Part shown: in pieces, positions 6,881-21,698 of the stretch | Layout: each line of letters starts with the position of its first letter | Numbering within the stretch: the first letter of the stretch is position 1 | Origin: Zetaproteobacteria bacterium CG_4_9_14_3_um_filter_49_83 | GTDB lineage: Bacteria; Pseudomonadota; Zetaproteobacteria; Mariprofundales; Mariprofundaceae | DNA: 64,000 bases | Direction: 5' to 3' | NCBI GenBank assembly: GCA_002791545.1 | Contig: PFXG01000011.1 | Span: forward strand, 1-64,000 | Notes under the pieces: generated by a model | What the model was told of the DNA's origin: nothing | The model's database searches: none | What the model saw: only the letters and a program-made list of their open reading frames with translations | Program-made: the position numbers and the translations under genes

Positions 6881-7269
6881 TACTGTGCCCGAGCAGGAGA
6901 TAAAGCAAACATCAGTTCAGTTGATTCTCCACGACGCTTCAACTTTACATACAGGCGATCTTTTTGAACATCTTTCACCGGCAGGGCCTTGCGAAACACT
7001 CCCAGCGCCCCATCCGGCATAGCTTGTTTCCAGTCAGAATGGTCAGTGCGCACATCCACCATTAAATCAGATGAAAAACCACGTTGCTGACGATTGGCAA
7101 TCACCAAAAATTCATTCATACCAACACGCAACTGCGTTGGCCGTGTTTCAATCTTAATCTCAAGATCCTGCCATGTCTGGGCTGATGGTGCCCATGCCTG
7201 CTCATTACCAGAACAAGAAACAAGCAGCAAACTAAAAAAAACAGACAGTAAAACCCTAAATATCATCAT
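6880..7269 (-). CDS. Predicted lipoprotein, FixH/YtkA-like
   Basis: A lipobox (LLVSC, cysteine near residue 19) follows a short hydrophobic leader, so the protein should be a membrane-anchored periplasmic lipoprotein. The remaining 110 residues look like an all-beta domain. The pattern with VRVGMNEF and VDVRTDHSDWKQAM resembles FixH/YtkA-type domains found near cbb3 oxidase genes, but the similarity is weak by eye. It overlaps the next upstream gene by 4 bp and abuts the cytochrome downstream. Confidence 0.6.
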   Translation of the reverse strand: MMIFRVLLSVFFSLLLVSCSGNEQAWAPSAQTWQDLEIKIETRPTQLRVGMNEFLVIANRQQRGFSSDLMVDVRTDHSDWKQAMPDGALGVFRKALPVKDVQKDRLYVKLKRRGESTELMFALSPARAQ

Positions 7270-7586
7270 AGTGTTGAGTCCGACTTGGCAAAACGCTCCA
7301 GATATCGACGCAGGATTTGCATATCCTGAGCGATGATTGGATCCATTCGACGTTCAACCCTGTGTTGTTGCATGCGGGCAATCACGTTGGGCCATTCTTT
7401 TGCCACATGCGCATCCGGAAGTGGAGGCGCGTGACAACTGGAACAATAACTCGAATACACTTTAAAATCATTTGAAGCCTCTTCAGGATAATCTATGTGC
7501 GTGCGATTAACAGACTGATCGCAGGATACCAGCACCAGCATAGCTGCCAACAATAACATTGCAGTTTTCGTGGCGATGGACATCAC
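7266..7586 (-). CDS. Lipoprotein monoheme cytochrome c
   Basis: The 106-residue product has a lipobox (LVLVSC near residue 22) and one CSSCH heme motif near residue 51, followed by a short helical domain. It is therefore probably a lipid-anchored periplasmic cytochrome c. A methionine-containing stretch (RRMDPIIAQDMQ) could supply the sixth ligand. It overlaps both neighbours by 4 bp, so it is translated together with them. Confidence 0.8.
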   Translation of the reverse strand: MMSIATKTAMLLLAAMLVLVSCDQSVNRTHIDYPEEASNDFKVYSSYCSSCHAPPLPDAHVAKEWPNVIARMQQHRVERRMDPIIAQDMQILRRYLERFAKSDSTL

Positions 7587-8035
7587 TTTGGCATATCCAC
7601 ATCATCATAATCATCCTTATCACTATCCAGCTTTCCGGCCCGTGAAGATCCATACAATGTAGTCATGAAATAGATAAACAGACTTGCGATGATAGCATAT
7701 AAACCGGCAGCAACATGTCCCCATGTAAACCAGGCTCTGGGAGCCTCAGGGCGGTCTCCCCAAAATGGCAGCGTCAAACCAAATGCCACCAACAATACCA
7801 TAATGATGATGCCGATAAACCATGCCGGAACATGCCGCTGTGATTCAGGAATTTTCTCGACCAATTCCCAGTCTTCAAGTCCCCGTTTATTCAAGCGCTC
7901 TTCATCCGTTGCATAGCCAAAATGATCTTCCGGGATTTCGCCCCACTTTTTATCTACAGGCGCAGTTGGTCGAACTGATTCACCAGCAACATCTTCATTT
8001 TTGCTTTGTAGCATATTATTCACCTTACCCATCAA
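7583..8035 (-). CDS. Two-TM protein related to the heme-less CcoP-like subunit
   Basis: The 150-residue protein has a charged 65-residue N-terminus, a helix at about 70-92, the motif TLPFWGDRPEAP, and a second helix at about 105-128. The first helix and the TLPFWGDRP motif match TFPLYGQRPTA after the first helix of the CcoP-like protein at 15592-16245, so the two look like paralogues. No CxxCH is present. It overlaps the FixG-like gene by 4 bp. The role is unknown, probably a structural subunit. Confidence 0.65.
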   Translation of the reverse strand: MMGKVNNMLQSKNEDVAGESVRPTAPVDKKWGEIPEDHFGYATDEERLNKRGLEDWELVEKIPESQRHVPAWFIGIIIMVLLVAFGLTLPFWGDRPEAPRAWFTWGHVAAGLYAIIASLFIYFMTTLYGSSRAGKLDSDKDDYDDVDMPK

Positions 8036-9381
8036 GATTTCGCAGGTATCTGCTTACGGACAAAATGCACGGCTTGAAAATCACGGGTCCAGCCACCATC
8101 AGCAGTAACGATCACACGAAAACGATATAAACCTTCCGCCAATTGGTCAGAGAATCTCAGCACCACATCCTGCCTTCCGGCACTCTGAAACTGAACATCC
8201 TGTGTTTGCAGAGAGAACAAAGATGGGTCAATTCCTTCAACACGGATATGCATGTGCTCCGCTTGATTAATTTTGTAGGCCAGATTAATTCGATAATCAT
8301 GAATCTGATCTGCCTGATTTGAATCAGATCTGTATACTGAAAACGATGCAGGCTCATAACTGGCGACACCATATACAACCATGATCGCTCCGGCCACTGT
8401 AGCGAAAGTGGCTGCGCGAGCCCGACTAAAAAATGAGCCTAACATCCCCCGATATTTTCCTTGCCACTCGTCACCAAGCTTAAGTGTTAATAGTCCGGGC
8501 CCGTCGAGCTTTTTACTTTTACTATGCAATTCATCACAGGCAACCACACAAGCACCACAGTTCACACAGCTGTCAAACACTTCAGGCTGGCGAGGATCGA
8601 TATCCAGAAAACATGAATCAACGCAGTAATGGCAGCTCTTACAGTGGTCTGAACGTGTCTTATCATATGATATATGCAAAGTGTCACGCGTCTTAAATGA
8701 ATGCTGCCACACACGGTAAATACACATATATTTACAAATAAGATGGCGCATCACACCGATATCCATCAGCATAATAAACACGCACACCATGTAAATCCAA
8801 TGCAGGCCATTAGCCAGAGCAGGATCATACTGGAACGTTATAAATGACCAGATAAGCTCAGGCGGATAAAAATAAAACACCGGAATCAAGGCATAAAACA
8901 TTGATGCCAATAACAAAGAAAAGCCAAGGATGACATAGTTCAACCAGGATTTTCTTCGACTGGCTACCTGCATTTTTATACCGCTGACATCCATCATGTT
9001 GGCCCGGCGACCCAAATACTTCTCCGTCATCATATTGGCCCATTCAGATGCCGTATTCTGCGGGCACATCCAGCCGCAAAAGACTGACCCGACCAGTGAA
9101 TACATCATAATCAACAGGCTGGCGATAAAAATCCAAAAGCCCATGATAATAAAAATATCTGAAAACCAAACCTGATGATCCAACATCAGAATGCCTGATG
9201 AAGGATCTATGCGAAACAAACCACTGGCAGGAATAAGCACCAACAGAACAAGTGTAAAAACTTGCACAGACCGGCGTGCAACATGCAACCATGTTGCACC
9301 GGGAGCATGCGCTTCCCGAATGGGAATTTGTTTTAGCGACTCTTGAGCTGACATCACGTACCCCGTATTTTTACCCTGCAT
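8032..9381 (-). CDS. ccoG: CcoG/FixG/RdxA family cytochrome oxidase accessory protein
   Basis: CcoG proteins are membrane ferredoxin-like proteins needed for cbb3 oxidase maturation and linked to copper reduction. The 449 residues hold N-terminal membrane helices and the FCGWMCPQNT motif near residue 101. Further helices with CKYMC follow, then two ferredoxin clusters (CKSCHYCVDSC and CVNCGACVVAC), and a C-terminal beta domain of the FixG type. This is the full architecture at usual length. Its location in a block of cytochrome genes 8 kb from the ccoN operon, rather than next to ccoNO, is notable. No CcoI copper ATPase is in the window. Confidence 0.88.
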   Translation of the reverse strand: MQGKNTGYVMSAQESLKQIPIREAHAPGATWLHVARRSVQVFTLVLLVLIPASGLFRIDPSSGILMLDHQVWFSDIFIIMGFWIFIASLLIMMYSLVGSVFCGWMCPQNTASEWANMMTEKYLGRRANMMDVSGIKMQVASRRKSWLNYVILGFSLLLASMFYALIPVFYFYPPELIWSFITFQYDPALANGLHWIYMVCVFIMLMDIGVMRHLICKYMCIYRVWQHSFKTRDTLHISYDKTRSDHCKSCHYCVDSCFLDIDPRQPEVFDSCVNCGACVVACDELHSKSKKLDGPGLLTLKLGDEWQGKYRGMLGSFFSRARAATFATVAGAIMVVYGVASYEPASFSVYRSDSNQADQIHDYRINLAYKINQAEHMHIRVEGIDPSLFSLQTQDVQFQSAGRQDVVLRFSDQLAEGLYRFRVIVTADGGWTRDFQAVHFVRKQIPAKS

Positions 9382-9407: not shown

Positions 9408-12020
9408 CTAACGCTGCTCAATGGCCAGTGGACTGACATCGTGCAGACGTTGCATCCACAGCTTAATTGCTTGCTGGTCATCTTTATCTCGGCTTTGTTG
9501 TAACATCTGACGAATTGCACCTTCATGACCGGGCTCTATAGCCAATATTTTAACCAATGCCTGTTCATAACTCATACCGTCCGGGATGTTGTTGTGCAAA
9601 GAATCGAACATTCGATCTGCAATTGCAGTACGTGGCCAACGATCCAACGCATTTGCCTTTAATGCTAACCTGGCCCACTCCAGAGCTTGATCTTCCTGAC
9701 CCTTTAGTTCCGCCATCCACAAGCGCACATCGATCGCGCTTCCAGCCCACGCGCGTTGAAACTGAGGTAAGTCCTGTGGCGCAACATGCAGCGCATCACC
9801 AGCCTGAGTCATTGAATCTTTCCACGACAACATCCATTGCCACAATGAATGCATATCCACTGACTGATCATAACGCACCCGTGGCAAAGCATATTCAATC
9901 ACCGGCGACCATTCATCTTGAGTTTTCACTTCCCAGGTATCAGGAATTCCCCCCCAATAACGTCCCAACCATGTCCAGATACCTTCTCCTCCGGTCATAT
10001 CATCCGGATTTCCGGCAAAATCATTCCTGCCAGCCAAAGATTGAATATGTGCGGATAAAGCTGAAGCATTCAGTGAAGTTTTATAGGTTCCAACCATCGC
10101 CAGTCGATAGCCATCGACGAATACACTGGCATCGTCAAACACTTGCGCAAACGTGTGTAATACAACTTGCAAAGACGCGATATCGAACTGATTCAGAGCC
10201 AGCCACTGCACAAAAATACCGCCCTCATGCAAGCGGTTGCGTACGCGCTCAAACTCTTGTCTGGATAATAAATTACCACGACCCACCATATCCGGATGAA
10301 ATAAATCACCCACAATCACATCGTAACGAGCGTTATCTCTACGTAAAAAACGTCTCACATCATCATGAACAACGTCAATTTTTTGCATGACGCCGTTATT
10401 GACCGGATAAAAAGTATCTGAAGCCGCCTGAATTGCCCCCAGTGATAATTCCACCGCGACACAACGCTCAGGCGAAAAAGCCAAAGCACCCGATGCTGTC
10501 ACTCCCGTTCCAAGACCTAAAAACAACACTGACTTCGGATCAGCATGCAGCAATAAAGGTAATCGGGCCTGATTCTTCTGTACAATCACAGCTGTAGGAT
10601 CGCTTGAAGCATCCATACGCTGCAAATCAGATAATAATACCCGCTGACCGTTATCTCTTTCTACGACATGGGTAGTCGCTACAGCATCTTCATAAAGAAA
10701 AATATCACGACCATCATGCAGTGAAGGTAACAATGCGGATACTGCTGGCAGTTGTTTTACTGGCCACATCAACAGCAACAAGCAAGGCAATGCCAGCCAG
10801 AATCTGACATTATTCAACCAACGGAATCCACATATCATTAGCAGCAATGCCGCCACCACTAAAGACATCGCAGCACCAATAAAAGGCACAGCAATCAAGC
10901 CGGCAAATAATACACCCAGTGCGGCGCCCAGACTGTTGGCTCCATACCACCAACCACAGCTCTGCGTACCAGAGGTACCGTCAAAATGTCTTGCCAACAC
11001 AGGTAGCCAGGCTCCAAGAACCAGTGTCACCGGCAATGTACAGAGCAGTATAACAAACCCTTGAGCCAGCATCGCCTGAGCCAGTGAATCAAATGTAGCT
11101 CGATTTGCCCACTGGCTAATGGATGGCAGAAGATATTGCCCGGCAACTGCCAATACGGCAGCCAAAACAGGTAGTATATTAAGCCACCACGAAGCCTTTA
11201 GCCATTTAGCAGCAATACTCCCAAAACCAACGCCCACCAGATAAACCAACAGTAGTACAGCCAAAACATATTCTGTACGCAGCAGCACCATGCCATAGAT
11301 CCGTGTCCATAAAATTTCCAACATCAGAGCAGCAGCACCAATGCCAGCATAAGCCAACAAGTCGATAAACGGTGGGCGCTGGACAGTTGATTGTGTTGAA
11401 ACTTCACCTTCTGCTGGTAAAGCCCGGGCTACCAGCAATGCCAATATCGCCATCAGCGTTGCAAATGCAGCGACACACCAAACCGAATCGTTTAAACCAA
11501 AACCCGGTAGCAAAAATAACGGGGCGATACCACCCATTGCACCACCCAAGGCATTAACGCCGTACATATCACTCACACCCAGACCACAAGCACGAGCTGC
11601 TCGCAGAGCTAAAGGAAAAGCAAAGCCCATTGCCAAAGCCGCAGGAAATAAAATCAGTATCGATGCAACACCCTGAAAACTCTGCCATTGGGCAAGTGTC
11701 AGTGTTGTGCCCGTTTCGGTTAGCCAACCATCAATAGCAGGCATACATATCGGTAACATTAGCGCATAAGCAGCAATGCCGAACTCTAATATCGCGACTG
11801 TTTGTAAGCTTCGCCTTGGAGACCAGCCTGTGCAGCAGCGTGATGCAAGAAGGCTTCCTGCCCCCAATCCCGCCATGAACGCAGCAACGGTAAACACGAC
11901 ACCAAAAATTCCAACGCCAAACAGTAAGCTTAGCATTCGCGTCCAGAGAATCTCATAAGCCAGCGCACTGGCTCCCATTCCGCCATAAGCGATAAGTAAT
12001 AGTGACTTTAAACAAGTCAT
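9408..12020 (-). CDS. Membrane-fused spermidine-synthase-like protein
   Basis: The 870-residue product has about twelve or more membrane helices in the first ~430 residues. A SpeE-type methyltransferase-fold domain follows (VLFLGLGTGVTASG near residue 500, VVHDDVRRFL near 555, VIVGDLFHP near 571), then a C-terminal ~200-residue helical region. Fused MFS/spermidine-synthase-like proteins are widespread, but few have proven aminopropyltransferase activity. It sits inside a block of cytochrome and oxidase-assembly genes, 26 bp upstream of ccoG, so a role tied to respiration is possible. The substrate cannot be read from the sequence. Confidence 0.75.
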   Translation of the reverse strand: MTCLKSLLLIAYGGMGASALAYEILWTRMLSLLFGVGIFGVVFTVAAFMAGLGAGSLLASRCCTGWSPRRSLQTVAILEFGIAAYALMLPICMPAIDGWLTETGTTLTLAQWQSFQGVASILILFPAALAMGFAFPLALRAARACGLGVSDMYGVNALGGAMGGIAPLFLLPGFGLNDSVWCVAAFATLMAILALLVARALPAEGEVSTQSTVQRPPFIDLLAYAGIGAAALMLEILWTRIYGMVLLRTEYVLAVLLLVYLVGVGFGSIAAKWLKASWWLNILPVLAAVLAVAGQYLLPSISQWANRATFDSLAQAMLAQGFVILLCTLPVTLVLGAWLPVLARHFDGTSGTQSCGWWYGANSLGAALGVLFAGLIAVPFIGAAMSLVVAALLLMICGFRWLNNVRFWLALPCLLLLMWPVKQLPAVSALLPSLHDGRDIFLYEDAVATTHVVERDNGQRVLLSDLQRMDASSDPTAVIVQKNQARLPLLLHADPKSVLFLGLGTGVTASGALAFSPERCVAVELSLGAIQAASDTFYPVNNGVMQKIDVVHDDVRRFLRRDNARYDVIVGDLFHPDMVGRGNLLSRQEFERVRNRLHEGGIFVQWLALNQFDIASLQVVLHTFAQVFDDASVFVDGYRLAMVGTYKTSLNASALSAHIQSLAGRNDFAGNPDDMTGGEGIWTWLGRYWGGIPDTWEVKTQDEWSPVIEYALPRVRYDQSVDMHSLWQWMLSWKDSMTQAGDALHVAPQDLPQFQRAWAGSAIDVRLWMAELKGQEDQALEWARLALKANALDRWPRTAIADRMFDSLHNNIPDGMSYEQALVKILAIEPGHEGAIRQMLQQSRDKDDQQAIKLWMQRLHDVSPLAIEQR

Positions 12021-12081: not shown

Positions 12082-12489
12082 TCAGTAGGGCCAAAACCAG
12101 GCAATGGATGTAGCGGCATGAACTGTCGCCAGCGTCAAAGTTAAACCAGCCAGTATGATATGAGCGACAAACACATCTTTTTCAAATGCCACCATAGCAA
12201 TACCCATGGTGGCGGTTAAAAATAACAAGACCAGCAGCGCAACGCCCATCATAAATAATATCTCATGTTTACGCTGAAGTTCAATTTTCCTTTCCGGACT
12301 TTCTTCCTGTTCACCAGAAAACTGCTGCATCACGGCTTCAGATGAAAGTTCCCTCGATGGATCCGATTGTTGATTTGAATTTTCAATTGTTGCCTGAGCC
12401 ATCACAGGCAGTAAAATCAGCAGACCCAATAAAAAAACAGTTCGCTTAATCGTGTTCAGCAACATCTTTTCTCTCAACCTCTTGGACAT
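12082..12489 (-). CDS. Small membrane protein with signal peptide and two TMs, unknown
   Basis: A signal peptide (residues ~10-32, ending VMAQA) is followed by a polar stretch rich in Gln, Glu and Ser. Two C-terminal helices come next, the last containing TLATVHAATSIAWF. I recognise no family. The gene overlaps the end of the preceding gene; a start at the second methionine (12465) would reduce the overlap and place the signal peptide at the N-terminus. It is followed after 61 bp by the spermidine-synthase-like gene. Confidence 0.55.
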   Translation of the reverse strand: MSKRLREKMLLNTIKRTVFLLGLLILLPVMAQATIENSNQQSDPSRELSSEAVMQQFSGEQEESPERKIELQRKHEILFMMGVALLVLLFLTATMGIAMVAFEKDVFVAHIILAGLTLTLATVHAATSIAWFWPY

Positions 12490-12685
12490 CTTTCTTCATC
12501 GCATTACGAACATACAAAATAGCGGATAAAATCATGGGCGCAAAAACCAGAAAGAATAAAAAGATAAAAATCAACCAAGGGGTTTCTATTGTTACATGCA
12601 GGTAGCGATAGCTATCTACAGCCCATGCAGCCTCAGCAGGCAATAACACTGCAAGCATGCATATTATTCTGATAAAGATGTTCAC
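12446..12685 (-). CDS. Small membrane protein, unknown
   Basis: This 79-residue protein has a cleavable-looking leader (ending EAAWA near residue 22), one strong helix (residues ~37-60) and a charged cytosolic tail (KKDVQEVERKDVAEHD). It overlaps its upstream neighbour by 4 bp, so translation is coupled. No family recognised; probably a small subunit or assembly factor of the same complex. Confidence 0.6.
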   Translation of the reverse strand: MNIFIRIICMLAVLLPAEAAWAVDSYRYLHVTIETPWLIFIFLFFLVFAPMILSAILYVRNAMKKDVQEVERKDVAEHD

Positions 12686-13725
12686 GGTTGACTCTCCTCT
12701 TGCTCAATATTCATCGCGCAACGAAACCCAAAAAAATCGGACGCATAGTTCGGCATTGAAAAATTACGATGATAGGCAGTGGTAGAGAAAGGGTCACTCT
12801 TCCAGGAACCACCCCGCATCACAAAATAGATCACACGTTCCTTTTCTTCTGAGCCACGGTGATAGGTTGGATCCAACTCTTTGGCCTGAAACACTTCCTT
12901 GCTGGCAGTAGTCCCCGGATAAGGAGAGAATTCGTCAGCAATCCACTCCTGAACATTTCCAGACATATCCATCACACCATAGGGACTCGCTCCTTGCGGA
13001 TAAGCATTTACATCTGTGATGTGACCGACTTTATAATATGTATTGAGATTTTCAGGGTGCATGGCTGAGCCCCAGGGCCAACGCCTGGCATCCGTACCAC
13101 GCGCAGCCTTTTCCCATTCAGCCTCAGTCGGCAAACGTTTACCAACCCAGGCACAATAATCACGGGCATTATACCATGATACCATAGTGACAGGTTGCAG
13201 TAGTATTCCGTTTGGAATGCGTCCTTCTGTCCAGTTCAATGGAATACGGTATCTGTTCTCAGCAATAAAACGGGCGTATGCAGCCTGCGTCACTGGATAC
13301 TTATCAATTTTAAATGCTTTGACTTGTACCAGATGTGCCGGTTTATTGGGATCATTTGAACGGTTGTCGTCTGTTCCCATGGTGAAGATGCCAGCAGGTA
13401 TAGTAACCATGGATGTGAAATCAAGCCACTGCTCAGCCGTGAGCAATGCCTGAGCTTCCTCAGGCGAATAAGTCTGCGTTCCAGCACTTTGATTTTCATT
13501 ATATTCGTGAAGATACAACTCTTCACCTGCGGCTCTGATTCTGGAGCCCATATCATTCACATCGTAACTGGCTTTACTCTGCATTTCATTCATACGCAAA
13601 GCGCCAAGCTTAAGCACATGTAGCGAGCCACCTACCATGGCTAACGTAATACAGACGACTAATGTCGCCATCATCCATCTTTTCCTTCTCTGCTTCTGTG
13701 CTGGAGAAATTTTCAGCTGTTTCAT
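12682..13725 (-). CDS. FGE/SUMF1-fold (NirV-like) membrane-anchored protein lacking catalytic cysteines
   Basis: An N-terminal helix (residues ~18-40) anchors a periplasmic formylglycine-generating-enzyme domain (from MVTIPAGIFTMGTD near residue 105 to FGFRCA near 338). Family landmarks are clear: KYPVTQAAYARF, WYNARDYCAWVGKRLPTEAEWEKAARG, GNVQEWIADEF and MRGGSW. The copper-binding cysteine pair of true FGE, expected just after RGGSW, is absent (here SWKSDPFSTTAYHRN), so formylglycine formation is unlikely. Proteins of this fold called NirV occur beside nitrite reductase nirK in other bacteria. Here it is embedded in a cytochrome block with 4-bp overlaps on both sides. Confidence 0.8.
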   Translation of the reverse strand: MKQLKISPAQKQRRKRWMMATLVVCITLAMVGGSLHVLKLGALRMNEMQSKASYDVNDMGSRIRAAGEELYLHEYNENQSAGTQTYSPEEAQALLTAEQWLDFTSMVTIPAGIFTMGTDDNRSNDPNKPAHLVQVKAFKIDKYPVTQAAYARFIAENRYRIPLNWTEGRIPNGILLQPVTMVSWYNARDYCAWVGKRLPTEAEWEKAARGTDARRWPWGSAMHPENLNTYYKVGHITDVNAYPQGASPYGVMDMSGNVQEWIADEFSPYPGTTASKEVFQAKELDPTYHRGSEEKERVIYFVMRGGSWKSDPFSTTAYHRNFSMPNYASDFFGFRCAMNIEQEESQP

Positions 13726-14225
13726 GAATTTTTGTTGGTTGTATCTTCTTCCTCAAGTGGCAAAGGCTCAGAGTCGGCGGGCATAAAACCTGGTGAATCC
13801 CAGCTAAAGCGTTTTCGAATGATCAACTCGCCAAGGAACCCGCCGATCGCACAAAATTCCATCTGTAATATAACGAAAACAACCCATAGCCCCCAAGGGA
13901 TGAGATGTGTACCATCTGGGACGCTATAAGTATGTTGATAGACATATAACATCGTTAATGCTGGCGGAAAATGTGCCAGATATTTACCGCCAAAACCGTA
14001 TATAGCACCAACAACAATGCCTGCAACTACAGGTACAATCGTCATTGCAATAATCCAGGCGGCATTGAAGGCTGAAATCCCGGAGAACCATTCAATATGA
14101 ACATCCAATCCAAGCATCATTGACTGATAAACCAGAACACCTGCAACAAAAGCAACTATTCCGCGTACCCAATAGGGAGCCCATGAATTAGAGCGAATAC
14201 CGACATTTGGTCGTTGTACAGACAT
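13722..14225 (-). CDS. Multi-TM membrane protein, unknown
   Basis: The 167-residue protein has four likely helices (residues ~20-38, 50-80, 84-96 and 110-135) and an acidic C-terminal tail. A glycine-rich helix (VVAGIVVGAIYGFGGKYL) is the most distinctive part. No family recognised. It overlaps the FGE-like gene by 4 bp and lies 1 bp from the cytochrome c gene upstream, so it is clearly part of the same operon. Confidence 0.6.
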   Translation of the reverse strand: MSVQRPNVGIRSNSWAPYWVRGIVAFVAGVLVYQSMMLGLDVHIEWFSGISAFNAAWIIAMTIVPVVAGIVVGAIYGFGGKYLAHFPPALTMLYVYQHTYSVPDGTHLIPWGLWVVFVILQMEFCAIGGFLGELIIRKRFSWDSPGFMPADSEPLPLEEEDTTNKNS

Positions 14226-14226
14226 G

Positions 14227-14721
14227 TTAACTACCTTTTAATTTTTTCTCTTCGGCCTTTCGCGCTTCTTCCAAATACCATGCGCGAACTTTCAAACTGG
14301 AAAAATATTTAGCTAAAATATCACGCTCAGTAACGGATAAGTTTGAATATGAAGGCATCTTATACTTTTCTTTAAGTCGAGTAGGCAGCATTTCTTGTGG
14401 ATTAACAGCAGAAAAGTATGCAAAAAGCCACTCTTCACTTCGCCAGGACCCGATTCCGTCCAAACTAGGTGCTGGAACAGTTTCATAAATGCTTTTAACG
14501 CCCCAAATCGTATGACAACTACGGCATTGAAGACTTTTATACAGTTCGGCACCGGATCGCTCCAGGGCCGCGTTAGCCGTAGAATAAAAAGGTAAACCTT
14601 TCTCTGATGTATCTACAGGAGCAGGATTTATGATCGATTGAACAATGGCTGCGATAAAAGTCATAGCCAACAGGATGATAACCGTATTAATTACGGTCAT
14701 CCAATTCATGTGTTTCAGCAT
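14227..14721 (-). CDS. Membrane-anchored monoheme cytochrome c
   Basis: One N-terminal helix (residues ~10-30) is followed by a periplasmic domain with a single CRSCH heme motif near residue 66 and a likely axial methionine in KYKMPSYSNL near residue 121. The design, an N-terminal anchor plus one c-type heme, is that of CcoO-like subunits. The DGIGSWRSEEWLFAYF segment recurs as DGIGSRRTQEWLNAFL in the cytochrome at 21078-21698, so these two are related. It lies between the CcoS-like gene (3 bp away) and an unknown membrane protein. Confidence 0.85.
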   Translation of the reverse strand: MLKHMNWMTVINTVIILLAMTFIAAIVQSIINPAPVDTSEKGLPFYSTANAALERSGAELYKSLQCRSCHTIWGVKSIYETVPAPSLDGIGSWRSEEWLFAYFSAVNPQEMLPTRLKEKYKMPSYSNLSVTERDILAKYFSSLKVRAWYLEEARKAEEKKLKGS

Positions 14722-14724
14722 GTG

Positions 14725-15003
14725 TTAATTCTGTTCTCTTGCAGCAGCTTCCCGTTCAGCCAGCACTTCCTTGCGACGCAACTCCTGACTGGCATTTACC
14801 TGCTGTGATTTTGCGAATTCTTCAGGAGACATTTTGTCACGGTCACCTTCATCAAAAACCAGATACTTGATATCCTCGTCAAATTGTTCATTTTGTGATG
14901 CCCATCGAATGCCAAACACCACCCCGACAAGAATAGCAGCACCACTGATCAACCAGATGTAAAGGGTCCAACCGTCTTGCAATTCAAACATATCAGCCTC
15001 CAT
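14725..15003 (-). CDS. CcoS-like small membrane protein
   Basis: The 92-residue product has one helix (residues ~12-32) followed directly by IRWASQNEQFDEDIKYLVFDEGD. That matches the helix-plus-W(A)xxxxQF/YDD pattern of CcoS, a protein needed for cofactor insertion into cbb3 oxidase. The C-terminus is longer than usual and ends in a charged coiled-coil-like segment rich in Arg, Glu and Ala. It is the second gene of the block, 22 bp after its neighbour's stop. Confidence 0.6.
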   Translation of the reverse strand: MEADMFELQDGWTLYIWLISGAAILVGVVFGIRWASQNEQFDEDIKYLVFDEGDRDKMSPEEFAKSQQVNASQELRRKEVLAEREAAAREQN

Positions 15004-15025: not shown

Positions 15026-15340
15026 CTAGAACAGGAATCCGTCAAGCAGTTGCACGGCTGCAAAGATAGAGGCAGCAATCACTCCCAGCACAATGAGAGC
15101 AAACAGAGCCTTTTCACCGGTTTTAATCTCATTACCCTTCTCTGACTTGTAGAAGGCGATGATGATTCCCATAAATACAGCAATAGCTATCATCATAAAG
15201 ATAAAGATTGCTACGCTGTAGCTATGGCTACGCATACTTTCTATGCCCAGGTCATAGGCCTGCTGCGATTCGTTGGCCCAAGCACTCACACTCAACACAT
15301 GTGTAGCAACAAACAACAAGACTGCGTTTACATATTTCAC
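15026..15340 (-). CDS. Small membrane protein, first gene of the 13-gene block
   Basis: A signal peptide (ending SAWA near residue 22) is followed by two helices (about 40-63 and 77-100) joined by a Lys/Glu-rich loop. I recognise no family. The terminator at 15403-15422 lies just upstream on this strand, so transcription of the block from here to 6521 probably begins in the ~60-bp interval before this gene. Confidence 0.6.
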   Translation of the reverse strand: MKYVNAVLLFVATHVLSVSAWANESQQAYDLGIESMRSHSYSVAIFIFMMIAIAVFMGIIIAFYKSEKGNEIKTGEKALFALIVLGVIAASIFAAVQLLDGFLF

Positions 15341-15445: not shown

Positions 15446-15580
15446 TCAAAAAACATTTTTACGTGGATCAGGTGATCCTTTTTTATGATTATCCACAAAA
15501 AAGCTGTAGACAATCGGAACTAGCAAAGCAATCGAACACACCAGAATTCCGGCAATTAATGGGCTATCTAAATCAATCAT
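15446..15580 (-). CDS. 44-residue CcoQ-like small membrane protein
   Basis: The frame begins MIDLDSPLIAGILVC and ends RKNVF, with one helix over residues ~8-28 and a basic tail. An AAGGAG ribosome site sits about 7 nt before the ATG. It is the last gene of the cbb3 operon, right before the terminator. Size, topology and position match CcoQ, the small stabilising subunit of cbb3 oxidase, but the sequence is too short to assign with certainty. Confidence 0.75.
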   Translation of the reverse strand: MIDLDSPLIAGILVCSIALLVPIVYSFFVDNHKKGSPDPRKNVF

Positions 15581-15591
15581 TATCGTTCTCC

Positions 15592-16245
15592 TTAGTGTGC
15601 AATTGTGTGATCAGGGCGCCAGCTGAAGTGTGGCAAACGCTTAACAGCAACAATCACAGCCAAACAAAATCCAATAAAGTACCAGAATGCAATCAAATAC
15701 CCTTTATCCCACCATGGCTGCTTTGCAAGCACAGTTCCATCAGCTTGAATATTAAAGAAGTTTGATATAACCACATCAGGACCTACAACGATGTACTCTT
15801 CAAGATCTGCACCAGCTTTTTGCAATTCAATGATCTGAGGTGCAATGACACGCAAATGATCCAGATCTATCGGATGCTGCTCACGTTGAAACGTATATTT
15901 CGAATCAAACTGTGTAAGCGAATCGGTGATCAGCGCCATAGCTTTTGTGTTTGCTTCGTGATGAGAAATTGTACGATCATTCATCACTTCCTGAACCATG
16001 GTACTATTCATCAAAGATACATAATCCAGATAAATCGCAGCAGTAGGACGCTGGCCATACAGTGGAAATGTAATCGCAATCGCTGTTGCAAAAGTAAGCA
16101 GAAGCAGACCAATCACCGGGCGTGGTAATGGGTTATTGTTTTCCGCAATACCACCCAAACTCTCATGTTCCCATACATGCTTAGCTTCTTTGTTTTGATC
16201 CTCTGTCGTCAATGAAAACAGCGGATTATTAAATGTCCATCCCAT
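15592..16245 (-). CDS. Heme-less CcoP-like two-TM subunit
   Basis: The 217-residue protein begins with a cytosolic segment containing HESLGGIAENNNPLPRP, which recalls the N-terminal 'E-x-NNPLPR' entry to the first helix of CcoP. A helix follows (residues ~44-62), then the motif TFPLYGQRPTA, a periplasmic domain of about 110 residues without any CxxCH, and a second helix (~185-205). In normal cbb3 oxidases CcoP is a diheme cytochrome; here the hemes are missing. It stands in the ccoP position directly after ccoO. It is probably a structural subunit, with a related 150-residue protein at 7583-8035. Confidence 0.7.
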   Translation of the reverse strand: MGWTFNNPLFSLTTEDQNKEAKHVWEHESLGGIAENNNPLPRPVIGLLLLTFATAIAITFPLYGQRPTAAIYLDYVSLMNSTMVQEVMNDRTISHHEANTKAMALITDSLTQFDSKYTFQREQHPIDLDHLRVIAPQIIELQKAGADLEEYIVVGPDVVISNFFNIQADGTVLAKQPWWDKGYLIAFWYFIGFCLAVIVAVKRLPHFSWRPDHTIAH

Positions 16246-16256
16246 TATTTACCCCC

Positions 16257-17192
16257 TTATTTCAAATTCAACACAAAATCTACAAGCATACGAGCTTCAC
16301 TGTCTGCAGCAGGAGTTGGTACTCCCGGTGGATAAACGCTTTCACCTTTAGCATAAGCAAAGTATTGCTCATCCCATGCAGCCAGGTCGATATTCTTTCC
16401 ATCTGCATCTTTGTCACCCCACAAGAAGTCGTAGCGCGGCATAATTGAATGCGGTTGAACCAGACGTGGATTAAAGAAGTGCATCACCATCCACTCACGT
16501 GAAGAGTTGCGCGAACCAACATGCAACAAATCAGGTGCTTTACGGTCAGAACCAAACGTTGTTGGGGATTCGCCATTAAAGTCCCCTACCATCGGAGGGC
16601 GACCAAAACTCTGCCAGTCTTGAGTCTGCTCAGGCAACAGTGTGTGACACCACCAGCACCCTTCACGAACAAACAATGTCTTACCAGAACCTGCCATCAA
16701 CTGTTCGTCCGATGCTTTTAGCGTTGCATCGACATTCCAACCACGAGTTACAGTTGCATACTCCATATATGGCGTATCATTACTTGTAACACTTACAACA
16801 AATACAGCACCTTTATCTTCTGACGCCTGGTCGATTTTACCGAGTGAAACTGATGCTTTCTGAACTTCATCACCCAAAATATTATCGTGGGTCAAACCAT
16901 TCGGAAAATGCGTTCCAGCCGGAAAGACATAAGCTTCAGTCTTATCGATAGCCACGCCAGTTTTCGGGTCTTTCGTCAAGGTTACCTTAATAGGCTTATC
17001 TTTACCCTGCAAAAACGGGTCATAATAGTTAAAACCTGTTTCCCAGCCGTAAGTAAGCTGTTTTTCTAACGCCAGTTTTGTAGATGACATTGAAGAAATG
17101 TCAATACCTGGCAAAATGATGGTGATGAACATGGATAAACTCAGTGAAATCCCGAACATCCAACATCCGATTTTATATTCTCTAAAAGCCAC
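16257..17192 (-). CDS. ccoO: Cytochrome c oxidase cbb3-type subunit II, enlarged
   Basis: CcoO is the membrane-anchored monoheme subunit that passes electrons to CcoN. The 311 residues comprise an N-terminal helix (~10-30), a heme motif CWWCH at 179-183 (family consensus EGCWxCHT) and the axial-methionine segment HSIMPRYDFLW at 248-258. Usual CcoO is about 200-240 residues with the heme motif near residue 70. Here roughly 100 extra periplasmic residues lie between the anchor and the heme domain. It is 82 bp after ccoN and 11 bp before the CcoP-like gene. Confidence 0.88.
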   Translation of the reverse strand: MAFREYKIGCWMFGISLSLSMFITIILPGIDISSMSSTKLALEKQLTYGWETGFNYYDPFLQGKDKPIKVTLTKDPKTGVAIDKTEAYVFPAGTHFPNGLTHDNILGDEVQKASVSLGKIDQASEDKGAVFVVSVTSNDTPYMEYATVTRGWNVDATLKASDEQLMAGSGKTLFVREGCWWCHTLLPEQTQDWQSFGRPPMVGDFNGESPTTFGSDRKAPDLLHVGSRNSSREWMVMHFFNPRLVQPHSIMPRYDFLWGDKDADGKNIDLAAWDEQYFAYAKGESVYPPGVPTPAADSEARMLVDFVLNLK

Positions 17193-17274
17193 GGATTCTC
17201 CTCCCTTATTTACATAAAAACTATTTTAGTTTCAGGGCCAGCGATATTGCTGGCCCCGATTAATAAAGAACCGC

Positions 17275-18681
17275 TTAACGTGTATAAGCCACTTCAGCAG
17301 GCTGACGGCCAACCGGTACAATATCACCAGCACGAGCAGTCATAACCATGTTGTACAGCCAGATGATGTTACCAAAGAACACCATGGTCCCTCCAATCCA
17401 GCGGACGATCATGTAAGGATGCTCAGCAATCACCACGTCCACATAAGGAACTTCATAGATCTTAGCAGCACCCTGGATCAAGCCCGAAATTGTCATGGAG
17501 ACCCAGTACAATGAGAATCCGATGAGCAGCATCCAGAAGTGGAAGTTAGCCAGAGATGCTGAGTACAATTTACGACGCAGCAGAACCTGCATGCCATAAT
17601 ATACTGATGCAGCTTCAGCAAAGGTTGAGAATCCCAGCAAGGCCAAGTGAGCATGCGCCACAATCCAACCAGTACCATGAATATACCAGTTAATAGCACG
17701 CGTTTGTTGGAAACCACCCTGCATATTCAAAGGAATTGCCAGCAACACACCAGTAATTGTGAACTTGATTTCGATGTTCTCAACAAACATAGACCAACGT
17801 CCTTGCATAGTTAGCAGGATGTTACATACATATGCTACAGCTGGAACCAGAATCAACACACCTTCAACTGAAGCGAAAGACTTAAGCCATTCTGGCAGCG
17901 GCGAACTCATCAGGTGATGCGCAGCTGGCGTTGAATAAAACACAACGATTGACCAGAAATGTAAATGACCAACACGATGTGAATACAACGGATTACCAGT
18001 AATTTTAGGCACAATGTAGTATGTGATTGCGGCAGCAACCGGTGTAATCAACAAGCCAAGAACATTATGTGCAAACCACCATGTCATATAAGCTTCATTC
18101 AAACCAGTCAGATGCAACCACTCAGGCATATTACCAACCAAGAACACTACAACTGTCATAAACATACAACCAGCAAAGAACCAGTTCGTTGTATAAATAC
18201 CTTGCGTACGACGATTGATAATAGTCATCCATACGTTCAAGCACCATGGAACAACCATTACAAAAGCAATATACAGATCGATAGGCCAGATATGATCTGA
18301 ATACTCACGACCGGAAGTTACACCAGCCCAAAGCAAAGCCAATGCAAGGCATAGACCTACATTATAAAGAAGACAGTTCCACACACCCAGCTTCTCTGAC
18401 CACAATTTAGTATTACCCAGCGCAGGCGTGATATACATCATTGATGCTGCAAACGCCATGGCAATCCAACCAAAGATCACCGCATGCACATGCACCTGAC
18501 GCATATGACCAAACTGCAAAGCATACAAACCGTGATACAAATCCGGAAATGCAAGCTTAGCCGCATTAAACGAGCCAAGACCTGAACCGATAATGAACCA
18601 GGCTATGGATGAAACTCCGAAGAAAATAGCCGCAGTTCCCTGCGGAATATTTTCCTCTTTAGCAAATAAATATTTCAGCAT
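17275..18681 (-). CDS. ccoN: Cytochrome c oxidase cbb3-type subunit I
   Basis: CcoN is the 12-helix catalytic subunit that reduces oxygen at a heme b3-CuB centre. In 468 residues the key sites are all visible. The low-spin heme ligand lies in RQVHVHAVIFGW (H64). The CuB ligands are in WWFAHN and PAAHHLM, with the tyrosine of VVFYSTPAAHH placed as the cross-linked tyrosine. The VAHAHLALLGF pair supplies the remaining heme ligands. It should thus be an active, high-affinity oxidase suited to microaerobic growth. Two tiny membrane proteins precede it and ccoO follows. Confidence 0.93.
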   Translation of the reverse strand: MLKYLFAKEENIPQGTAAIFFGVSSIAWFIIGSGLGSFNAAKLAFPDLYHGLYALQFGHMRQVHVHAVIFGWIAMAFAASMMYITPALGNTKLWSEKLGVWNCLLYNVGLCLALALLWAGVTSGREYSDHIWPIDLYIAFVMVVPWCLNVWMTIINRRTQGIYTTNWFFAGCMFMTVVVFLVGNMPEWLHLTGLNEAYMTWWFAHNVLGLLITPVAAAITYYIVPKITGNPLYSHRVGHLHFWSIVVFYSTPAAHHLMSSPLPEWLKSFASVEGVLILVPAVAYVCNILLTMQGRWSMFVENIEIKFTITGVLLAIPLNMQGGFQQTRAINWYIHGTGWIVAHAHLALLGFSTFAEAASVYYGMQVLLRRKLYSASLANFHFWMLLIGFSLYWVSMTISGLIQGAAKIYEVPYVDVVIAEHPYMIVRWIGGTMVFFGNIIWLYNMVMTARAGDIVPVGRQPAEVAYTR

Positions 18682-18720
18682 TTTTAAAAGACCCCCAAGA
18701 GATTATTATTTGTTACCAAC

Positions 18721-18834
18721 TCAATATTCATCTTCATGCTCTTCGTCATGCTGACCCGGCATCAACAGATACCACGCAAACCACATACTCGAAAACGCAA
18801 GCAAAACACCCAGAATTGAAGCAATTGTATCCAT
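18721..18834 (-). CDS. 37-residue single-TM protein upstream of ccoN
   Basis: The frame starts MDTIASILGVLLAF and ends HEDEY. One helix covers residues ~3-24, and the tail is strongly acidic with two histidines. The AGGAAA before the ATG overlaps the stop of the upstream gene (18839), so the two are translated in series. It is one of several tiny membrane proteins in the cbb3 operon and is probably an accessory subunit. Confidence 0.65.
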   Translation of the reverse strand: MDTIASILGVLLAFSSMWFAWYLLMPGQHDEEHEDEY

Positions 18835-18838
18835 TTTC

Positions 18839-19105
18839 CTATTCCCCCTTCCTGTGACCCTCAAGCAACGCATGCTGCTTAAGCGCATAACCAAGAATTA
18901 ACACAAACGCAAACCCGAAAATAAACATAATCCAGTCTGCAGTACCTTGATATGTACGCGGATCATAAGGATCCATAAACCACAAACCAGCTTCGCCAAA
19001 CGGCCCACGACCTACAGCCAGTAGAAACGCAGCAGTAAATACCGAGCCATTCCCCATGCCAGTCGTCATGCCAGCGACGATAGTCAACCAGATTGAACTT
19101 TTCAT
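18839..19105 (-). CDS. 88-residue two-TM protein, first gene of the cbb3 operon
   Basis: Two hydrophobic helices (residues ~5-30 and 58-77) flank a periplasmic loop with GLWFMDPYDPRTYQGTADW. The C-terminal tail is basic. No family recognised. It is the first gene of the unit that leads into ccoN, and a stretch of about 280 bp without a gene lies upstream, presumably holding the operon promoter. Confidence 0.6.
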   Translation of the reverse strand: MKSSIWLTIVAGMTTGMGNGSVFTAAFLLAVGRGPFGEAGLWFMDPYDPRTYQGTADWIMFIFGFAFVLILGYALKQHALLEGHRKGE

Positions 19106-19390: not shown

Positions 19391-19585
19391 ATGAAAGAAA
19401 TTCTCATCTACGGAACCAGCGCACTCGCCTCACTGTTCATTTTCGGATATACAGTACACATGTTTGTTGGCGGGCTGGTCAGCGAAGAAACCGAAACCAT
19501 ACTGATCGTTGTGGTGGTAAGCATTTGCGCCGCTGCGTTGGCATATCTTGCCTGGGAAACCATGCAGCACAACAGGAAACGCTAG
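19391..19585 (+). CDS. 64-residue two-TM protein, divergent from the cbb3 operon
   Basis: The product has two clean helices (residues ~7-30 and 36-57) separated by an acidic turn (SEETET) and ends in a basic tail. The overlapping frame at 19336-19605 lacks such character and is rejected. No family recognised. It is the only plus-strand gene between 6488 and 21840 and converges on the gene at 19596. Confidence 0.6.
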   Translation: MKEILIYGTSALASLFIFGYTVHMFVGGLVSEETETILIVVVVSICAAALAYLAWETMQHNRKR

Positions 19586-19595
19586 ACCTTCCAAG

Positions 19596-20060
19596 CTACT
19601 TGTAGCGCTCTAGCGATTTTATAACTGAATCAAAGTCCGCTTCATTGAACTGATTACGATGAAAAACAAATTGTTTTTTTACGCCGTACTCATCCGACCC
19701 CGTTAAGCCAAACGATTTCCCGGCATGATCCGCAAAGAATCGAATATCTTTCAATAAATTCAACATCTGCCCATTTTTTTGTTTTAGCCGAATACGCTCC
19801 CGGTTTATATCCAACGCTATCGGCGACGATGGCATAACAAGAAGCCGCCGCATCACACGAGCCCCACCCACCATCAAAAAGAAAAACCCCAGAAACATGA
19901 GAACTTGCCCTACAATCTCATCATCTCCGTGCGCATACCAAAGCCTGACACCCATCAACAACAGAAATCCAACGGTTGGCACATAAAGCAATAAATCCCA
20001 TAAAACACCTGCTTTATCCGCGTGCAATTCACACTGAACCTCTTCCCATCGCTTAGCCAT
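19596..20060 (-). CDS. Membrane protein, unknown
   Basis: The 154-residue protein has two helices (about 22-43 and 51-66) and a soluble C-terminal half with a PH-like or beta-rich look (IALDINRERIRLKQKNGQML). It shares its first base with the last base of the thioredoxin-like gene and so belongs to the same operon as the short CcoN-like gene at 20572. No family recognised. Confidence 0.6.
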   Translation of the reverse strand: MAKRWEEVQCELHADKAGVLWDLLLYVPTVGFLLLMGVRLWYAHGDDEIVGQVLMFLGFFFLMVGGARVMRRLLVMPSSPIALDINRERIRLKQKNGQMLNLLKDIRFFADHAGKSFGLTGSDEYGVKKQFVFHRNQFNEADFDSVIKSLERYK

Positions 20061-20596
20061 TACAACTTCTTCCCCTGAGTCAGCAATTCCAGTACAGGAT
20101 CAATTTCTTGATACAGCATTCTTCCCGGATAAACCATCTCAACCTTACCTTCAGCATTAACAATAAAAGTCCAAGGCTCACCTCTTACCTGGAACGCATC
20201 GTAAGCCTCTGGGTTATAATACTGATCCATATGAAGAAACAAAACCTGATCACCATATTTATTCATCATTTCTTTTAATAACTGCAACTGCTTGTCACAT
20301 TGGGTGCAGTGCCCCGGCGTAGCGAATTCAAGCACAATAGGCTTATGTTGTTTTAATGCCTCGTCCACTGACCACTGGTACATACGAGGATCCGGATAAC
20401 GGTAACTGGTTAATTTAGCCATATCCCCGCCAACATCTTTCAGCGTTTTGGTAGCCAGAGAAGGCACAGCCTCCCCTTTCAAAAAATAACCACCACCACT
20501 CATGTCACCAAAATCAATATCACAACCCGATAAAGCAATCAAAACTGCGACAATAAACACGCGACATTTCATCATACTTTTCGCCAACCGGCGCAT
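20060..20596 (-). CDS. Thioredoxin-fold lipoprotein with CTQC active site
   Basis: A lipobox (ALSGC, cysteine near residue 25) follows the leader, so it is a lipid-anchored periplasmic protein. The domain carries FATPGHCTQCDKQLQLL near residue 93, a thioredoxin-type CxxC, and ends with the GEPWTFIVNAEG stretch typical of the fold (with the usual cis-proline region). It may reduce cytochrome c apoproteins or a copper site. The first seven residues overlap the CcoN-like gene; a start at residue 8 or 9 is also possible. It is the third gene of the operon 21698-19596. Confidence 0.75.
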   Translation of the reverse strand: MRRLAKSMMKCRVFIVAVLIALSGCDIDFGDMSGGGYFLKGEAVPSLATKTLKDVGGDMAKLTSYRYPDPRMYQWSVDEALKQHKPIVLEFATPGHCTQCDKQLQLLKEMMNKYGDQVLFLHMDQYYNPEAYDAFQVRGEPWTFIVNAEGKVEMVYPGRMLYQEIDPVLELLTQGKKL

Positions 20597-21081
20597 GTTT
20601 TAAAGATATTGTATGCCCATACAAAGTTCGCCAGTAATACGATAGTACCGAAAATACCCACCAGAGCCAACCAGGGACGAACCAGTAGTTCCAATTCAGC
20701 AGGAGGCATTGTTAAACTGGCCATACCACCAATCGTACCCGCTGTACTGAAGAAAACGACCATTCCAATCAAGCCAAGGTTATGTGTCCAGAAGTGAACT
20801 TTCACCAGCTTCATACTATAGATCGGGCGTTTTACCAAGCGTGGTATAATATAATAAACAGCTGCAAATATCGCCATTTCCACCCAGCCCAGAAGATTAA
20901 TATGCGTATGAGCTCGCACAATCAATTTACCGAACATGCGCTCATCAACGAAATGTCTGAAGTCATGAATTCCACCCATTAAGGCGCCCCACGAAAACCC
21001 TATAATACTATAAATCACACATGCGAAAACAAACCAGAGCGTATATTTGACGTATTCCTGATCTTCCCAAGGTTGACTCAT
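20572..21081 (-). CDS. Short CcoN-like (heme-copper oxidase subunit I-like) protein
   Basis: The 169-residue, four-helix protein contains VRAHTHINLLGW near residue 55 and YYIIPRLVKRPIYSMKLVKVHFW. Both align with the VAHAHLALLGF and YYGMQVLLRRKLYSASLANFHFW parts of the true CcoN here, that is, its last four helices. The CuB ligands and the second heme b ligand are missing. It overlaps the upstream membrane-anchored cytochrome c by 4 bp, mirroring the ccoN-ccoO pairing in miniature. A heme-binding electron-transfer role is likely; oxygen reduction is not. Confidence 0.78.
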   Translation of the reverse strand: MSQPWEDQEYVKYTLWFVFACVIYSIIGFSWGALMGGIHDFRHFVDERMFGKLIVRAHTHINLLGWVEMAIFAAVYYIIPRLVKRPIYSMKLVKVHFWTHNLGLIGMVVFFSTAGTIGGMASLTMPPAELELLVRPWLALVGIFGTIVLLANFVWAYNIFKTCAGWRKV

Positions 21082-21698
21082 GGCTGCTGTATCTCCTGTA
21101 TCGCACGATCATTGGCTTCTTTTAAAGCAGCCGGATCATCACGAACATCTTTATATTTTTCTTTCCATTCCTTTGGAGCCCACGTATTCACCATCGAATC
21201 AATGAACGGGGAATCTCCTTTTGGCGGCACTGCCGCAGAAGATGAACCCTGATCAGATATTAACTCAGACAAGAATGTTGCAATGGCATGCAAGTCCTGC
21301 TTTGGCATCTCAGAAACGTAGGCAGCAGAGCGTTGACCCGGACCATGATCAATCGTTTGTGATCCATAGGTGCTTTCCGGAGATTGCAAGAATGCATTCA
21401 ACCATTCCTGTGTTCTTCTGGAGCCAATACCATCCAGATCAGCTGTGCGCCCCATATTTGTGCCATTACGTAAAGCACGATGACATGTTGTACAGCCGTT
21501 TTCTCGAAACAGCCGCGACCCCAACTGGCCCTCTTCTGATAATTCGGCATGCGTTTTCGTTTCGAACAGTGGTTTATCCGACTTTGAAATTACGACTTGC
21601 ATGATAATAAATGCAATCACTGCGAATACGACAAATAATCCTGCCACAGTAAATAGAATTTTTTCGCCCGGCTTTAAAGGTTGACTTGGTTTACTCAT
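21078..21698 (-). CDS. Membrane-anchored monoheme cytochrome c, CcoO-like
   Basis: The 206 residues have one N-terminal helix (~14-36), one heme motif CTTCH near residue 69, and a methionine in SEMPKQDLHAIATFL near residue 129 that could be the axial ligand. The tail after the heme domain is long and charged. The heme domain resembles the cytochrome at 14227-14721. It heads a four-gene operon with a short CcoN-like protein, the thioredoxin lipoprotein and an unknown membrane protein. Confidence 0.85.
   Translation of the reverse strand: MSKPSQPLKPGEKILFTVAGLFVVFAVIAFIIMQVVISKSDKPLFETKTHAELSEEGQLGSRLFRENGCTTCHRALRNGTNMGRTADLDGIGSRRTQEWLNAFLQSPESTYGSQTIDHGPGQRSAAYVSEMPKQDLHAIATFLSELISDQGSSSAAVPPKGDSPFIDSMVNTWAPKEWKEKYKDVRDDPAALKEANDRAIQEIQQP

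Follow-up and report, generated by a model that had tools for sequence, protein, structure and literature searches.

The window analyzed here, 64,000 nucleotides from Zetaproteobacteria bacterium CG_4_9_14_3_um_filter_49_83 (contig PFXG01000011.1), holds on its minus strand at 15446-19105 the genes of a cbb3-type oxidase in which the protein at the CcoP position lacks a heme c motif. We think it probable that this is an O2-reducing C-family (cbb3) oxidase of the branch called "distal", which keeps a heme-less CcoP and takes in electrons through the heme of CcoO and a companion membrane cytochrome. As far as sequence can tell, the entry route of electrons, and perhaps of protons, seems to have changed in this oxidase of iron- and nitrite-oxidizing bacteria. 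The genes on which the argument turns are the following.

15592-16245, minus strand: heme-less CcoP-like subunit, 217 residues, with a FixP_N start, a membrane helix, a putatively periplasmic helical domain, and a second membrane helix.
16257-17192, minus strand: enlarged CcoO, 311 residues, one heme c (C179, C182, H183, M251; insert at about residues 68-166).
17275-18681, minus strand: CcoN-like catalytic subunit, 468 residues.
14227-14721, minus strand: membrane-anchored monoheme cytochrome c, 164 residues, a candidate substitute for the hemes of CcoP.
18721-18834, minus strand: 37-residue one-helix protein in a CcoQ-like position (listed as a 57-residue frame, 18721-18894).
18839-19105, minus strand: 88-residue one-helix membrane protein.
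15446-15580, minus strand: 44-residue one-helix membrane protein.

The CcoP-position protein has two hydrophobic helices, an NNPLPRP motif, and no CxxCH, as a first-pass annotation of this DNA had claimed. The same lack of CxxCH was found in 80 of 80 named relatives (a subset of 149 confirmed stretches, spanning Zetaproteobacteria, Gammaproteobacteria, Gallionella, Sideroxydans, Nitrotoga, and Ferrovum), so the loss of heme is not a matter of chance. The N-terminal FixP_N motif reads GI-x-E-x-x-N-P-x-P, and its glutamate, four residues before the first proline of NPLPRP, is kept in all 80 loci, 79 of them by pattern and L105 by direct reading (the pattern failed there at a neighboring residue). 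In many Gamma- and Betaproteobacteria, the first proline is an arginine (NNRLP), with the glutamate in the same register. Across a 30-row alignment (29 of the 80 named loci plus the window, the size also used for CcoO), the invariant positions are W25, E28, L30, G31, E35, N37, and P41, together with most of a C-terminal QPWWD-x-GY block.

Where canonical CcoP has its cytochrome c domains, this protein has a mostly helical stretch without a heme motif. The structural model (mean predicted local distance difference test [pLDDT] score 76.4) places helices at residues 42-63 and 183-202 with this stretch between them, and confidence is high at about residues 70-160. Judging by its charges, the stretch would lie in the periplasm, where canonical CcoP holds its cytochromes. 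Comparison of the whole model with the PDB gave no Foldseek match at E ≤0.001 and a best VIA-align Z of 3.9, and a PDB sequence search with the CcoP-like profile gave a best match at E 0.45; a missing or weak structural match is not the same as a new fold. A periplasmic domain without a significant fold match would also suit a protein that is an assembly factor or structural subunit, having only the N-terminal docking helix in common with CcoP and no proton or electron role. The helix does seem to have been reused: a 150-residue protein at 7583-8035, near the CcoG-like and CcoH-position genes, has the same N-terminus (39 columns, E 1.8e-7), so that the cluster holds two such proteins. Yet the 217-residue protein is encoded in the place of ccoP, with ccoN and ccoO preceding its gene in 66 of the 66 loci that have >2,500 bases upstream, and its motif glutamate is universally kept. 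We therefore regard a role purely in assembly or structure as unlikely and continue to treat the protein as a CcoP homologue that has lost its hemes.

CcoO had been described as about 100 residues longer than usual, and it is: its 311 residues compare with 200-242 in solved CcoO chains and 236 in the canonical copy of the same genome. The FixO match (68 bits) covers residues 169-267 only, and the extra ~100 residues separate the membrane anchor from the heme domain. The subunit has one CxxCH, and C179, C182, H183, and M251 are invariant in all 30 aligned rows, each of which also contains the insert. Two further CcoO sequences without CxxCH (L081, L093) were taken for cut fragments. The insert is modeled with a pLDDT of ~85-97, and the whole model had no Foldseek match in the PDB at E ≤0.001 and a best VIA-align Z of 2.0, which again does not amount to a new fold.

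The catalytic subunit is divergent but complete. CcoN gave a COX1 match of 271 bits and reached 246 of the 583 bits that TIGR00780 requires. To assess its conservation, we compared 68 sequences, namely the window and the 67 loci whose CcoN match exceeded 800 bits, out of 72 with any such match. All six metal-ligand histidines (H60, H207, H257, H258, H345, and H347 in Pseudomonas stutzeri numbering) are kept in 68 of 68, as is the helix VII active-site tyrosine (Y251 in P. stutzeri, Y249 in the window), which lies six residues before the CuB histidine pair; the earlier statement that the catalytic residues are all present thus holds. We take the histidines to be the ligands of heme b, heme b3, and CuB, and the Y251 position to be the active-site cross-link tyrosine. 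E122, T215, Y223, and H337 are likewise kept in all 68 sequences, and Y237H, S240G, Y317A, T321N, E323Q, and E125D are replacements found in every one.

Divergence of this degree, the loss of some canonical channel residues, and the small monoheme membrane partners could point to a nitric oxide reductase-like heme-copper protein rather than an oxidase. However, the cross-link tyrosine and CuB histidines are invariant, and the window CcoN scores 213 bits to solved cbb3 compared with 28 bits to NorB. In a small tree of our own with 22 distal CcoN of the 68 (21 loci and the window), this CcoN forms a separate clade (support 99/99) that joins canonical cbb3 and two plasmid-borne forms (92/87), and the NorB rows fall outside. 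Several branches are long, so the deeper placement is unsure. The genome with the Nitrotoga fabula ZN8 record is also telling: its COX1 matches are two short ones and a single full-length one, which lies in this cluster, and on contigs of at least 3,000 bases it contains no bd subunit I and a FixP_N match only below threshold, at this same cluster. An aerobic nitrite oxidizer would thus have this gene as its sole full-length heme-copper oxidase, and for another N. fabula strain a high-affinity cbb3 oxidase is predicted to end nitrite oxidation (PMC6050957). We give a nitric oxide reductase almost no credence.

If oxygen is the substrate, the question becomes how electrons reach the active site. 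The first-pass annotation had placed the operon's sole heme c in CcoO, which proved wrong: the same-strand run continues past 15446, with small or overlapping gaps, down to 14227-14721, where the 164-residue protein is a membrane-anchored CxxCH cytochrome c (Cytochrom_C, 33 bits). Its C66, C69, H70, and M122 are invariant in 23 rows (the window and 22 loci, drawn from the 69 in which the cytochrome occurs; L057 was left out for an uncertain start), and it is homologous to a 206-residue cytochrome upstream (hhalign E 6e-22). Where the downstream sequence extends for at least 2,500 bases (66 named loci), the cytochrome is missing from L070, L074, and L075 and present in the other 63. In these three (two Mariprofundaceae metagenome-assembled genomes [MAGs] and one Zetaproteobacteria MAG), the cluster ends after the 44-residue gene and other genes follow. 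Two of the genomes concerned, G017 and G015 (matched to L070 and L074 by contig coordinates), keep a copy of the cytochrome on another contig; G009, G015, and G017 each have it on a separate contig.

The cytochrome and the heme-less CcoP also travel together across genomes. Among 78 genomes sampled from the class Zetaproteobacteria (the window genome measures 2.68 megabases), 39 have both, two have only one, two only the other, and 35 have neither (Fisher 2.6e-17, uncorrected for shared ancestry), so that the cytochrome was found in 39 of the 41 genomes carrying the heme-less CcoP. The prediction of fewer hemes is probably right, with one in CcoO and one in the companion compared with three in canonical CcoO and CcoP, even though the companion cytochrome had been overlooked. 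The accompanying idea that the electron donor differs from that of canonical cbb3 is plausible.

It is possible, though we would not bet on it, that the CcoO heme takes its electrons straight from soluble cytochromes and that the 164-residue cytochrome belongs to another electron carrier of the same regulon. Several further cytochromes are encoded in the cluster, and in docking for the Rhodobacter capsulatus supercomplex, the cross-links used for cytochrome c2 included eight to CcoO and one to CcoP (PMC7876108), which makes direct reduction of CcoO plausible. Against this stand the position of the cytochrome gene inside the oxidase operon and its company with the CcoP-like gene in nearly every carrier.

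A second way to supply the hemes would be a canonical CcoP encoded elsewhere, and the first-pass annotation had held that a diheme CcoP of this kind, co-purifying with CcoN, would speak against its reading. The genome does have one. Contig C74 carries ccoN, ccoO, a ccoQ-like gene, a diheme ccoP (CAGCH and CSGCH in the translation), and a ccoG-like gene, as well as ccoI- and ccoS-like genes named by reading; the diheme subunit thus comes with a CcoN and CcoO of its own. If it joined the window CcoN and CcoO, the complex would have three hemes c and the heme-less protein would be an accessory. Mixing of isosubunits is known in Pseudomonas aeruginosa, according to the title of Hirai 2016.

However, the distribution of the two forms makes such borrowing very improbable as a general explanation. 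We defined the canonical form by a strong FixP_N match (>60 bits in Zetaproteobacteria, E ≤1e-8 in the Nitrotoga family), with hemes read in the window genome only. Of the 78 Zetaproteobacteria, 41 have the heme-less form and 40 the strong FixP_N match: 19 have both, 22 the heme-less form only (14 of these at ≥90% completeness), 21 the canonical form only, and 16 neither, and the two occur independently (Fisher 0.38). In the family of the Nitrotoga genome (150 genomes), the counts are 45 for the heme-less form and 106 for canonical FixP_N, with 17 having both, 28 heme-less only, 89 canonical only, and 16 neither; here the association is negative (Fisher 2.5e-8, ancestry uncorrected). A canonical CcoP was found in the window genome, but none in 22 of the 41 Zetaproteobacteria or 28 of the 45 Nitrotoga-family genomes that have the heme-less form.

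Some observations weigh against a heme-less CcoP served by a companion cytochrome. The FixP_N match of the window protein (E 0.0017, 18.5 bits) falls short of the Pfam cut-off of 24.9 bits; among its relatives, 12 matches in 11 Zetaproteobacteria genomes lie above it. Several canonical K-channel positions of CcoN are lost, so the proton route may differ greatly. The heme domain of CcoO is modeled largely below pLDDT 60, and no contact can be read from the model. Finally, G010 and G019 have the CcoP-like gene without a cytochrome match and G007 and G059 the reverse, all four in fragmented assemblies.

With these reservations, the favored reading can be drawn as a pathway. The heme-less CcoP would be kept for assembly and for the mouth of a proton channel, without a part in electron transfer. 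Electrons would enter at the CcoO heme, most likely from the membrane-anchored 164-residue cytochrome, whose gene lies four downstream of the CcoP-like gene, and earlier in the chain soluble cytochromes could donate, the Cyc1-like diheme protein of the cluster among them. The oxidase would then end a high-potential chain leading from Fe(II) or nitrite to O2. On the proton side, we assume that the K-channel is lined by Y223, S240, and Y317 of P. stutzeri CcoN, with a CcoP glutamate at its mouth, and that the CcoP N-terminus has a role in proton entry. Of this canonical set, Y223 is kept, whereas S240 is glycine and Y317 alanine in all 68 sequences. If these roles are right, the K-channel may have been rebuilt in this CcoN while the CcoP glutamate stayed.

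The oxidase genes belong to a cluster of ~20 genes whose order is nearly constant across the 80 named loci, and the nearest named relatives of the window locus are Zetaproteobacteria, including Mariprofundus ferrooxydans PV-1, M. erugo, and Mariprofundus sp. EBB-1. The order runs from the diheme cytochrome through the 206-residue cytochrome, short CcoN-like protein, thioredoxin-like protein, 154-residue protein, 64-residue protein (other strand), and 88-residue protein to the 57-residue frame, CcoN, CcoO, CcoP-like protein, 44-, 104-, and 92-residue proteins, and 164-residue cytochrome. It continues with the 167-residue protein, FGE-sulfatase domain protein, 79- and 135-residue proteins, spermine-synthase-domain protein, CcoG-like protein, and 150- and 129-residue proteins, and ends, in some loci only, with the 119-residue cytochrome and a divergent pair. 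From the 88-residue gene to the FGE gene, order and strand are identical in 42 of the 43 loci holding all 11 genes (the exception is L056). Unlike in the relatives, the diheme cytochrome of the window sits at the opposite end of the cluster (3828-4613). The three tiny membrane proteins noted earlier as possible subunits are real, with homologues in 65 (88 residues), 61 (57-residue frame), and 66 (44 residues) of the 80 loci, and for the frame at 18721 a length of 37 residues is the better reading. The remaining genes of the region, from high to low coordinates, are these.

21078-21698, minus strand: 206-residue membrane-anchored monoheme cytochrome c, paralogue of the 164-residue cytochrome.
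20572-21081, minus strand: short CcoN-like protein (restricted to COX1 model positions 309-434).
20060-20596, minus strand: thioredoxin-like protein.
19596-20060, minus strand: 154-residue membrane protein.
19391-19585, plus strand: 64-residue membrane protein.
15026-15340, minus strand: 104-residue membrane protein.
14725-15003, minus strand: 92-residue one-helix protein, CcoS-like (FixS E 0.035, below threshold).
13722-14225, minus strand: 167-residue membrane protein.
12682-13725, minus strand: FGE-sulfatase (SUMF1-like) domain protein with a membrane anchor.
12446-12685, minus strand: 79-residue membrane protein.
12082-12489, minus strand: 135-residue membrane protein.
9408-12020, minus strand: 870-residue membrane protein with a spermine-synthase domain.
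8032-9381, minus strand: CcoG-like polyferredoxin.
7583-8035, minus strand: 150-residue protein, second heme-less CcoP-N-like paralogue (I-P-E-S-Q-R-H-V-P before the first helix).
6880-7269, minus strand: 129-residue one-helix protein in the CcoH position, without a Pfam match.
6521-6880, minus strand: 119-residue monoheme cytochrome c.
5934-6488, plus strand: 184-residue protein, Pfam Bact_hydrolase.
5429-5962, plus strand: second short CcoN-like protein, 177 residues.
3828-4613, minus strand: 261-residue diheme cytochrome c, putatively Cyc1-like by neighborhood and heme number only.

The FGE-sulfatase-domain and spermine-synthase-domain proteins are regular members of the cluster. The two short CcoN-like proteins are homologous to each other (hhalign E 3.5e-16) and conserved in the cluster; they cover COX1 model positions ~309-434 and ~309-411, keep an H-x-H motif like that of the CcoN heme-ligand helix, and lack the CuB part. 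The one at 20572-21081 is paired with the monoheme cytochrome at 21078-21698. CxxCH motifs in nine CcoG-like rows were read as ferredoxin cysteines. An aminotransferase class III gene and an ectoine synthase gene (ectoine genes, 763-2441) adjoin the oxidase region. An Rfam scan of the window returned transfer RNAs and nothing else. A promoter scan found 10 sites, fewer than the 16.5 in shuffles, and a terminator scan found 9, similar to the 6.7 in shuffles; with no signal from either, transcription units are argued from gene spacing alone.

In a phylum-wide sample of 398 genomes, 42 had a CcoP-like match, all in the window's own class; the weak match in G041 was taken for the 150-residue paralogue. 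The scan of named genomes, unlike this sample, also shows carriers among Gamma- and Betaproteobacteria. The heme-less CcoP is thus more general than a single locus could show, occurring in many iron- and nitrite-oxidizing bacteria. A bolder view, which we hold tentatively and think rather doubtful, is that cbb3 was rebuilt across this lithotroph lineage: CcoP would serve only proton entry and docking, the K-channel would be rewired (S-H-R-x-G-H-L-H-F-W in helix VII), electron input would have moved to the membrane cytochrome and enlarged CcoO, and one complex of at least 10 subunits might link Fe(II)- or nitrite-oxidizing cytochromes to O2.

Textbook CcoP combines electron input and the proton-channel mouth. 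A heme-less CcoP splits the two, and a natural, widely kept one allows the indispensable job of CcoP to be tested directly. For neutrophilic iron oxidizers and Nitrotoga, in which the final transfer of electrons from periplasmic cytochromes to O2 has so far been drawn as a box, the cluster supplies a definite list of terminal oxidase subunits.

The oxidase itself is already in print, and the heme-less CcoP homologue is the variant feature. "Proximal" and "distal" cbb3 forms are reported for Zetaproteobacteria (PMC7029218) and Gallionellaceae (PMC10734462), and for Sideroxydans lithotrophicus ES-1, where their subunit composition differs (PMC8788666). Because the organisms are the same, the forms number two, and the ES-1 subunits are stated to differ, the window oxidase is very probably the distal form. 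In the parts of these three papers available to us, we found no description of a heme-less CcoP, the cytochrome co-occurrence, or the CcoO insert; nor was a heme-less CcoP homologue found described in the other passages and listings consulted (subscription papers, Ducluzeau 2008 first, are outside this scope). In ES-1, distal ccoN and ccoO are highly expressed (~3× more); the distal form is upregulated on thiosulfate, and its proximal counterpart on Fe(II)-citrate (PMC8788666). This pattern speaks against the distal oxidase serving Fe(II) oxidation in every host. Distal-type oxidases have already been linked to electrons from Fe(II), thiosulfate, electrodes, and nitrite (PMC7029218, PMC8788666, PMC5371394, PMC6050957).

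Other partial likenesses are known. The M. ferrooxydans PV-1 genome paper lists ccoNOP (PMC3179512). In Ferrovum JA12, subunits I and II alone were recognized, and the authors proposed that co-localized c-type cytochromes take the place of subunit III (PMC4725956), whereas here a CcoP homologue is present without heme; a Ferrovum MAG (L118) likewise carries the heme-less CcoP-like gene. The complex IV-2 region of Tenderia electrophaga, which is very highly expressed, resembles the window in its Cyc1-type diheme cytochrome, polyferredoxin, and oxidase-like genes, and the region around Cyc1 is syntenic with M. ferrooxydans (PMC5371394); we regard it as a candidate counterpart only. CcoN of Cupriavidus metallidurans CH34 is 32.7% identical, and on the megaplasmid of this strain (L171, 6815-9624) consecutive genes encode CcoN, a CcoO with one heme, and a monoheme membrane cytochrome c. 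However, CcoN is fused there to a CcoS-like start, CcoO is of normal size, and no CcoP-like gene was seen among open reading frames of at least 110 residues. An SCO-like gene also lies in this CH34 stretch, which is unannotated in the gene table of the record.

The closest yardstick remains canonical CcoNOQP (P. stutzeri 3mk7 and 5djq, and the C74 copy). The window oxidase shares with it the CcoN ligands and tyrosine, a one-heme CcoO, the FixP_N-type start of the CcoP-position protein, and CcoG- and CcoS-like neighbors. By contrast, it differs in a CcoP position without heme, a CcoO insert of ~100 residues, the replacements S240G, Y237H, Y317A, T321N, and E323Q throughout its CcoN, and a cluster enriched by further conserved cytochromes and membrane proteins.

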